DNA from: Paracoccaceae bacterium
GTDB taxonomy: Bacteria > Pseudomonadota > Alphaproteobacteria > Rhodobacterales > Rhodobacteraceae
Length of the DNA stretch: 64,000 nucleotides
NCBI GenBank assembly: GCA_024639125.1
Contig: JAHEJA010000002.1
Location: forward strand, 65,369 to 129,368
Direction: 5' to 3'
A model generated the notes under the pieces. The model worked only from the letters and a program-made list of their open reading frames with translations, had not been told where the DNA came from and searched no databases. Positions within the stretch are counted from its first letter, which is position 1, and each line of letters opens with the position of its first letter. The translations under genes and the position numbers were made by a program. Shown here one piece after another: positions 44,922 to 50,214 of the stretch.

Positions 44922-44950
44922 AAAAAAAATTAGTCGGACGTAATTTTTTT
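44922..44950. terminator. A/T-only hairpin with T-tract (possible terminator)
   Basis: AAAAAAATTA (44923-44932) pairs perfectly with TAATTTTTTT (44941-44950) around the 8-base GC-rich loop GTCGGACG. The T-tract is part of the stem. It lies 12 bases after the oxidoreductase stop. An A-U stem this long is unusual for intrinsic terminators, so confidence is moderate. Confidence 0.45.
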
Positions 44951-44954
44951 ATTG

Positions 44955-45102
44955 CACGACTCTTTTTGTGGTCCTATATGCGGTTTCAAGACGCCAACGC
45001 ACGCGCCTCTGGCCGGTATAACACTCGTGTTTACGTAGCGACGGTAACGTCTCCTTTTTTGAACTGGTCGGGTAAAAGCCCGGGTACTTATCGGAGATGA
45101 CC
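44955..45102 (+). ncRNA. Structured leader of ornithine decarboxylase (speF-motif type)
   Basis: The 148 bases before the decarboxylase are rich in short pairings: GACG-GTAA-CGTC (45040-45051, a GNRA tetraloop hairpin), CGGG-TAAAAG-CCCG near 45069-45082, and the segment ACGCGCCTCTGGCC at about 45001-45014. A conserved 'speF' leader RNA upstream of alphaproteobacterial ornithine decarboxylase genes is described; this segment resembles what I recall of it. TCTCC (45050-45054) can pair with the Shine-Dalgarno region GGAGA (45093-45097), but then competes with the GNRA hairpin. A translational switch responding to polyamine or ornithine is inference. Confidence 0.55.
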
Positions 45103-46275
45103 ATGAACGTACACGTAGATCGCCCTCAGGGCGTGGTAGCTTATTCAATTCAATCACACCTAGCTGATTTCATTCGTCGTGCGAATTTTGACCGCCCAAC
45201 GCTTGTGTTGTCTCTTGACGCGATTGCACAGCAATATCGTGCATTGGTCCAAGGATTGGGTCGCGCAAAAATTCACTATGCTGTGAAAGCAAACCCAGAA
45301 AAAGCAGTGATCGAAACCTTGGTCAAAGAAGGGTCTCGTTTTGATGCGGCGTCACGTGCGGAAATCGAATTGTGCTTGGCAATGGGCGCACGTCCAGAGC
45401 ATATTTCCTTTGGTAACACGGTAAAACGCCCTGCGGATATCGCATTTGCCTATCGTGCTGGCGTTCGGTTGTTTGCGGCAGACGCAGAAGAAGAGCTAGA
45501 AAAATTGGCAGAACATGCGCCAATGGCACAGGTCTATATTCGCCTCTTGGTGGGCGCGACTGGTGCTGATTGGCCATTGTCCCGCAAATTTGGCTGCTCG
45601 CTTGACATGGCGTTGCCATTGATGGCGCGTGCACGTGAATTGGGATTGAAACCTGTTGGTGTGTCTTTTCACGTTGGCAGCCAAACACGCGATGCAAATA
45701 TGTGGGGCGCAACTTTGGAACAGGTCGCAGCCGTCTGGCGCGATGCCCAAGCCCAAGGATATGGCCTTACTGTTTTGAACATTGGCGGTGGTTTCCCAGC
45801 ATCCTATGAATACGATGTTGACCGTCCAACGGTTTACGCGTCTCGTGTGATGGAACAGGTCGATGCGTTGTTCCCAGATGCGAAATACGTGATGGCAGAG
45901 CCCGGACGCGGCATGGTAGCCGAAGCTGGAATGATTTCAGCAGAAGTGCTTTTGGTGTCGCGCAAATCAGAAGACGATTTGCACCGCTGGGTCTATTTGG
46001 ACATTGGTAAATTCTCGGGTCTTGCCGAAACGATGGACGAAGCAATTCGCTACCAGTTTGTGACAAACCGTGATCACCAAGAAATGAGTCCCTGCATCCT
46101 TGCTGGTCCAAGCTGTGACAGCGCAGATGTGCTATACGAAAAACGTCCTGTGATGTTGCCAGTTGGTTTGAAATCTGGTGATCGGATCATGATCAAAGCC
46201 TGTGGCGCATACACAACGACATATGCAACAATCGGCTTCAACGGATTTCCTCCGTTGGATGTTGTGATTCTCTAA
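45103..46275 (+). CDS. Ornithine/lysine decarboxylase, fold-III PLP enzyme
   Basis: Eukaryotic-type (alanine racemase fold) ornithine decarboxylase (390 aa), making putrescine. The PLP lysine is K62 in [12 protein letters not shown]. Other motifs are [11 protein letters not shown], the phosphate-binding [23 protein letters not shown], and the C-terminal active-site segment around Cys367 ([16 protein letters not shown]). Residues at the substrate site permit lysine or arginine as alternatives, so 'ornithine/lysine' is safer. The ATG at 45103 lies six bases after GGAG; an ATG at 45097 would touch it. A structured leader of about 150 bases suggests control at the RNA level. Stop codon shares CTAA with recR. 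Confidence 0.93.
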
Positions 46276-50110: not shown

Positions 50111-50120
50111 TAGGTAAGGT

Positions 50121-50214
50121 GAGAGGCTGGACAGCGACCCAAGCGGGACTCGTTACGGCTGCTTCCTTCCGGATCTGACCGGGTTGGCGAGGCGCTCGCC
50201 CACGCCAACCTCTC
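50121..50214 (-). ncRNA. ffs: Signal recognition particle RNA (4.5S, small bacterial type)
   Basis: The minus strand carries the conserved apical SRP core GGTCAGATCCGGAAGGAAGC, continuing AGCC, at about 50150-50173. The ends close with a perfect 10-bp stem: GAGAGGTTGG (5', 50205-50214) against CCAGCCTCTC (3', 50121-50130). It binds Ffh for co-translational targeting. Proximity to dnaX is usual in alphaproteobacteria. Exact ends may differ by a few bases. Confidence 0.95.

Follow-up and report, generated by a model that had tools for sequence, protein, structure and literature searches.

A compact leader RNA before an ornithine/lysine-type decarboxylase gene of Rhodobacteraceae as a candidate homologue of the extended speF leader

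Results

The decarboxylase locus and its leader

The window, which is the whole 64-kb stretch of DNA analysed here, carries an ornithine/lysine-type decarboxylase gene (PLP fold III) on the forward strand at 45103–46275. The best solved relative of its product is the lysine/ornithine decarboxylase 2plj (E 1.1e-58), and its NCBIfam matches are all below cut-off, with lysA the best. The gene probably starts at ATG 45103 rather than at ATG 45097, because relatives with GGAGATGACCA-ATG place the first ATG out of frame. Its Shine–Dalgarno sequence (SD), GGAGA at 45093–45097, is conserved in relatives. Elsewhere in the window, a bacterial small SRP RNA (RF00169, 54.1 bits) lies on the reverse strand at 50118–50214, near open reading frames (ORFs) that look by eye like dnaX, ybaB and recR.

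Upstream of the gene, a predicted promoter consists of TTGCAC (44952–44957), a 17-nt spacer and TATATG (44975–44980) on the forward strand, with like-placed blocks in 91 leaders; the consensus promoter scan of the tool reported none at 44952–44980. We infer a transcription start at about 44988. Beyond the end of the upstream gene and ahead of the predicted −35 box sits a perfect 10-bp all-A/U inverted repeat with an 8-nt loop, AAAAAAATTA (44923–44932) and TAATTTTTTT (44941–44950) in the DNA, which could be that gene's terminator or a UP-like element. It is probably not transcribed with the leader, because it is upstream of both the predicted promoter and the conservation onset at 44989. The all-A/U hairpin with which the first-pass annotation began the leader is thus present in the DNA but outside the likely transcript.

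In the leader fold, a helix P1 (44989–44993/45048–45052) encloses a helix P2 that has a bulge, and both helices show compensatory changes. The P1 5′ arm, AGACG, is at or adjoining the predicted transcription start. The P2 arms are CG-CA-CGCGC at 44998–45006 and GU-A-GCG-A-CG at 45035–45043, with A45037 bulged, and between them lies the hairpin P2b (45010–45033), variable in length and sequence. The strand CGTCTCC can serve either as the P1 3′ arm (P1′, 45048–45052) or as the anti-SD strand (45048–45054). A further hairpin is predicted at 45068–45083 between the anti-SD and the SD; its sequence varies in 47 aligned relatives and its arms are complementary as judged by eye.

Direct reading of the sequence bears out the initial observation that TCTCC (45050–45054) is complementary to the SD and has two bases (45050–45051) in common with a GACG-GTAA-CGTC tetraloop hairpin (GACGGTAACGTC, 45040–45051). 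The pairing is extendable to 7 bp with one G-U, CGTCTCC (45048–45054) with GGAGATG (45093–45099). A 5-base match to the SD is weak when taken alone, and it is conservation and covariation that set the pairing above chance. The fold of 44922–45110 as a whole is no more stable than its shuffles (z −0.05), which rules out unusual overall stability.

Conservation in the family

The family leaders came from ornithine decarboxylase (ODC) homologues on genome contigs (80 of 237 loci) and from further genomes. We chose 95 of them by decarboxylase homology (at least 55% identity) and retained the 92 that carry GGAGA. One leader at a contig edge (L041) and two others (L092 and L095) were dropped, and the core is present in the latter two. 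The core GACGCCA[AG]CGC[AC]CGC[AG]CC is found in all 92 leaders of this GGAGA-selected set.

The promoter table covers 91 leaders (90 distinct), one of the 92 being too short upstream. In these leaders, conservation begins abruptly at AGACG, whose A precedes the GACG core in 85 of the 91, and CTTG-like and A/T-rich blocks upstream are placed like −35 and −10 boxes. CGTCT[CT] is present between the core and the SD in every one, with a core-to-P1′ distance of 50–102 nt. GGAGA and CGTCT are invariant among the retained leaders, so the anti-SD pairing does not covary within the family.

Rfam searches and class-wide models

Covariance searches of the window and its own genome rule out the leader as a match to either Rfam family considered, speF (RF00518; membership at 37 bits or more) or ar45 (RF02347; 40 bits or more). 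RF00518, the search proposed in the first-pass annotation, matches nothing in the window or genome, sub-threshold scores included. RF02347 does not score on the leader, and its best match in the genome (E 4.1) is at another place. At permissive thresholds no credible Rfam family covers the leader, and one match of E 9.6 is on the opposite strand.

Among 385 genomes of the class, ODC was found in 130 (E ≤ 1e-80). A block GCACGTGCC...GCAACGACG precedes many, but not all, of the ODC genes (80 upstream regions), and it lies just 5′ of the part modelled by RF00518 in the RF00518-positive genomes, 4 of the 142 searched (E ≤ 1e-3). The leaders are labelled speF/ar45-type, or Rhizobiales-type, by their RF00518 or RF02347 matches or by likeness to them. 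In four of these loci (L111, L113, L114 and L123), RF02347 spans the core and stops within or close to a U-run after P1′. It is followed by RF00518 at the gathering score in L111, where the gap is 8 nt, L113 and L123, and just below that score in L114. RF02347 is below its gathering score in six other leaders (L126, L143, L117, L256, L262 and L290).

Covariance model R2 was trained on 45 leaders from outside the window's family, 'outside' being the tool's kinship label. These rows were selected by the motif GCACGTGCC...G[CT]AACGACG, so invariance there is by construction. R2 has a single match in the 64 kb, at 44983–45062 (E 4.9e-11). It matched all 100 chosen sources, of which 33 are untrained Rhodobacteraceae-type leaders and the others, being training rows or R1 matches, match by construction; one match (L282) looks like chance. 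Model R1, built from the same 45 rows with the P1 register one column off, which R2 corrects, matches one place in the window's own genome.

Model R3 was trained on only 11 speF/ar45-type leaders and ranks the window's leader first (E 8.5e-4, the next being 0.29). It finds the core in 16 of the 18 Rhodobacteraceae-type leaders tested, with E up to 0.18 and missing L040 and L085, and in all 23 other leaders, with E up to 0.19. These matches support a kinship with speF, as judged from sequence. The kinship shows up solely with models made from relatives, and it relates to the 5′ domain, filed in Rfam as 'ar45'. The resemblance to the speF class noted at first therefore holds for this domain by R2 and R3, but RF00518 itself scores nothing.

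Five leaders 5′ of ODC (L097, L172, L196, L208 and L218) carry P1 as CGCACC/GGUGCG and a CCACGU...GGYAACGAGG core. Their outer P2 pair is CC/GG instead of CG/CG, possibly a compensatory change. R2 recognises only L196 (E 0.008) and L172 (E 0.013) among them, and weakly. This sub-group, which looks like a further leader variant, was excluded from the counts.

Covariation of P1 and P2

P2 has the form 5′-CG-CA-CGYGC/GY-A-RCG-A-CG. RNAalifold returned it unprompted from the 45 non-family rows, in which it hardly varies and shows no covariation. Two of its pairs vary on both sides, one being U-A in 67 rows and C-G in 33 and the other G-C in 61, G-U in 33 and A-U in 5. P1 takes the forms GACGC/GCGUC, GACGU/ACGUC and CCGUC/GACGG, with AGACG/CGUCU in Rhodobacteraceae and GCCC/GGGC in the speF/ar45-type rows.

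In alignment A3, which includes one likely chance row (L282), 91.7% of the cells are paired, against 85.9% after shuffles, which break the relatedness among rows, and 15–55% with slid structures, which preserve it. By helix, 84.7% are paired in P1, 99.6% in P2 and 84.0% in P2b. Cells changed on both sides number 74, against 21.6 ± 3.4 in the shuffles. The P1 arms score 12.64 with their own partners and 11.98 ± 0.17 with swapped ones (maximum of 200 swaps, 12.5). Covariance support in relatives, the lack of which the first-pass annotation would have counted against its proposal, was found, and the leader has a conserved, covarying and aptamer-like core as expected of a riboswitch.

The anti-SD helix and folding energies

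The anti-SD helix was scored class-wide in 94 of the 100 rows, three being without an SD pattern and three dropped for an SD window overlapping the arm. Its mean score is 16.9 with the leader's own SD region, 14.1 ± 0.35 with swapped ones (maximum of 500 swaps, 15.5), where the swaps do not preserve relatedness among leaders, and 9.5 with other windows of the same leader. In 63 of the 94 leaders, so not in all, the SD window outscores at least 95% of the other windows; a simple pattern served to choose the SD, and some picks look wrong (for example L054, L078 and L085). Anti-SD/SD pairs include UCCUUUUUGG/CCGAGAGGGA, GCUUUUUUGGU/ACUGAAGAGGC, GCUUUUUUAGC/GCUGAAGAGGC, UCCUUUU/AAAAGGA and UACUUCC/GGAGGUA, besides CGUCUCC/GGAGAUG of Rhodobacteraceae.

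All five P1′ bases of the window (45048–45052) belong also to the anti-SD strand, so P1 and the anti-SD helix exclude each other. This constitutes a predicted expression platform with mutually exclusive pairing, whose anti-SD helix covaries class-wide. A hairpin with the SD in its loop, GGUC-[GGAGAU loop]-GACC, also seemed by eye to covary. Its arms score 10.29 against 9.77 ± 0.13 when swapped, above all 500 swaps (maximum 10.20), and it is not claimed here, given the small margin.

In the predicted ensembles of 91 leaders, the SD/anti-SD pairing has a mean probability of 0.97 and exceeds 0.5 in 89, while P1 is almost never predicted to form (0.0002). When P2 is imposed, the anti-SD form is the more stable of the two by a mean of 0.8 ± 1.6 kcal/mol in 90 leaders, and the P1 form is preferred in 24, the window's among them (−26.2 versus −24.9 kcal/mol). 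Relative to the unconstrained predicted minimum, both forms with P2 cost a mean of about 10 kcal/mol. So the conserved core fold would need stabilising help, as modelled from this gap and the near-zero P1 probability.

Genes downstream of the element

The class survey ran with R1, so with the P1 register one column off, and it found the element at 100 places in 80 of the 385 genomes. Polyamine genes follow 91 of these places. ODC is at most 700 nt downstream of 59, and 11 more lie 0.7–4 kb before ODC, where each stretch starts with a second decarboxylase and/or homospermidine synthase. The remaining 30 comprise 18 before the second decarboxylase, one each before homospermidine synthase, AdoMet decarboxylase and ODC, four without a polyamine gene (L255, L274, L282 and L284) and five that run off the contig. 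Homospermidine synthase has PDB matches (E 1.9e-166), and AdoMet decarboxylase exceeds the cut-off of TIGR03330; the second decarboxylase matched its families only below cut-off.

Of the 130 genomes with ODC, 60 gave no R1 match at the survey threshold, and in ten genomes the element occurs although no ODC match reaches 1e-80. L255 (reverse strand, 2501–2570) is a strong 58-bit match with no recognised polyamine gene downstream, in a genome with another copy before ODC. In L143, L126, L132, L176 and other non-family leaders, a short ORF or an N-terminal extension comes right after the SD, for example AUGAUUGCAGCC and AUGCUUGCAGCC. Some of these ORFs apparently end before ODC and possibly encode a leader peptide.

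Discussion

We consider the leader to be, with fair probability, a cis-acting translational RNA of about 110 nt and a compact version, in Rhodobacteraceae, of the extended speF leader. Comparison among the leaders shows the core, P1, P2, the anti-SD helix and the place before polyamine genes. On these sequence grounds, it is better termed an extended-speF-leader homologue than an RF00518 member, since its 5′ domain is recognised by the models of relatives, it fails both Rfam thresholds and it is without the RF00518 part. Functionally, it is best read as an orphan riboswitch candidate.

The transcript would start near 44988 and the leader would control translation of the decarboxylase. Its 5′ half may act as an aptamer-like core, in which P1 closes P2 with a conserved CA/A internal loop, a bulged A and a variable hairpin top, and the P1 3′ strand would double as the anti-SD strand. 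By default the RNA alone would block the SD (OFF), and stabilisation of the core and P1, whether by a small molecule, an ion or a protein, would free the SD for translation (ON). We infer the start, the switching, the ON direction and the existence of a ligand, the OFF default and the ON response being drawn from energy models and the assumed start site.

The alternative to the anti-SD helix could instead be the GACG-GTAA-CGTC tetraloop, as the first-pass annotation had it. This hairpin is possible in all 33 Rhodobacteraceae-type rows tested and, when enforced in the window, is cheaper than P1 (−32.0 versus −26.2 kcal/mol), but only 41 of the 67 other rows can form it, it overlaps P2 bases and its mean probability in the 91 leaders is 0.017. 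Therefore, the conserved alternative appears to be P1 (AGACG/CGTCT) and the tetraloop is very improbable as the switch, a preference made by comparison and not by energy because P1 is predicted even lower than the tetraloop. Thus, mutually exclusive folds that block or free the ribosome site are supported as first proposed, with P1 in place of the tetraloop. Hardly any chance is left to control by ribosome stalling on a leader peptide, for which the ORF of 40 codons at 44978–45100 is open with its stop overlapping ATG 45097. Across the 91 leaders, an ATG occurs at −16 to −6 in 63 and some ORF starting from −15 to +40 continues to P1′ in 48, but an ORF of at least 25 codons from that position is found in only 18, with unlike endings, the core-to-P1′ distances spread over all three frames (33/36/22) and ATG 44978 falls inside the predicted −10 box. 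This ORF comparison rules out a conserved leader peptide.

Transcription attenuation, in which the core hairpin and U-run form an intrinsic terminator that stops transcription before the gene and leaves a short RNA, the ar45 'sRNA', is quite unlikely for the window's leader. It would suit the RF02347 matches that end at the U-run in the four speF/ar45-type loci, the T6 shortly 3′ of P1′ in the window, the S. meliloti SmrC45 RNA, which was assigned a length of 181 nt and an end at a U-run that follows a terminator hairpin (PMC2780559), and the ar45 and speF RNAs reported as separate in Bartonella (PMC7717549). However, five T within 13 nt after CGTCT occur in only 3 of the 91 family leaders, the window's included, and a T5 run, first 16 nt from P1′, in 30 of 64 others. 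The terminator scan finds no terminator-like site, and the U-run, where present, is able to pair with the SD region. The core may otherwise serve to recruit a protein or an Hfq-bound trans-acting RNA instead of a small molecule, which is unlikely, if a real contender. SmrC45 is reported to co-precipitate with Hfq (PMC2848018) and the part of the core that does not vary is a short helix with a bulge, whereas the place before polyamine genes and the anti-SD strand common to P1 fit cis control.

Returning to the riboswitch candidate, a wider view is tentative and somewhat doubtful: one class-wide metabolite-sensing RNA, unrecognised as a single family, may control alphaproteobacterial polyamine synthesis. 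The ar45 'sRNA' would then be the terminated Rhizobiales leader, RF00518 the downstream platform there and the Rhodobacteraceae leader a compact translational ON switch. Counting against the translational reading, the U-run end and the separate transcripts suggest an opposite, transcriptional output for the core of the speF/ar45-type genomes. Two separate Rfam entries, one of them filed as an sRNA, may accordingly be parts of a single cis-acting leader. Among the matches listed in open-access literature, as far as their excerpts tell, none joins ar45 and speF as one polyamine switch and none names a Rhodobacteraceae form of the speF/ar45 leader.

The wider gene set of homospermidine synthase, AdoMet decarboxylase and the second decarboxylase points to homospermidine, agmatine, decarboxylated AdoMet and carboxyspermidine as candidate ligands. 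Since 2005 the speF leader has counted as an orphan, and the binding tests on a 400-nt Agrobacterium construct were negative. According to the excerpts of the work that described the extended speF element, none of ornithine, lysine, diaminopimelate, putrescine, cadaverine and spermidine was seen to bind when the speF region of A. tumefaciens was probed in-line (PMC1273637). Excerpts of a later article reiterate that no ligand is known (PMC11477304), and the motif was revised and extended in 2018 by Greenlee et al., as cited in PMC7266159. A relative of about 110 nt with a clear platform, placed before several different polyamine genes, offers a short RNA and widens the range of ligands to consider.

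Like the window's leader, the odc1 motif (uORF-25-1) is, as described in excerpts, a riboswitch candidate that precedes ornithine decarboxylase in alphaproteobacteria and hides the ribosome site (PMC8632094). Unlike the window's leader, where the start is ATG 45103, it has two UUG starts two nucleotides apart and an 11-residue uORF, the two being compared by description. A search of the ODC loci for its arrangement, TTGNNTTG, gave eight chance-looking matches and no odc1 element, and none in the window's leader (L081). In E. coli, speF has a gamma-proteobacterial leader with a leader peptide and alternative folds before ornithine decarboxylase, and such gamma-proteobacterial speF leader peptides control the gene by ribosome stalling. 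The Salmonella speF leader is likewise reported with a leader peptide (PMC6386406), and its alternative folds before the gene resemble those here, whereas a conserved leader peptide is absent from the window's leader.

Among the closest systems is the extended speF element, which is reported before COG0019 ornithine decarboxylases in alphaproteobacteria with conservation from a putative start site into a stem with a variable insertion (PMC1273637). The window's leader likewise lies directly before a decarboxylase, putatively of the COG0019 type, and has the conserved stem with the variable insertion 5′ at the start site, as matched by R3 and R2. In other genomes RF00518 matches start downstream of the core, but the window has no such part: its SD comes about 40 nt after P1′, and this position and the lack of an RF00518 match both indicate that the bulged stem-loop of about 80 nt after the first stem of speF is absent. 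The ar45 RNA, whose role is termed unclear in the excerpt of PMC12403871, differs in being reported as a separate terminated sRNA and in the null score of RF02347 on the window. It is similar in that RF02347 covers the homologous 5′ core in the four speF/ar45-type loci.
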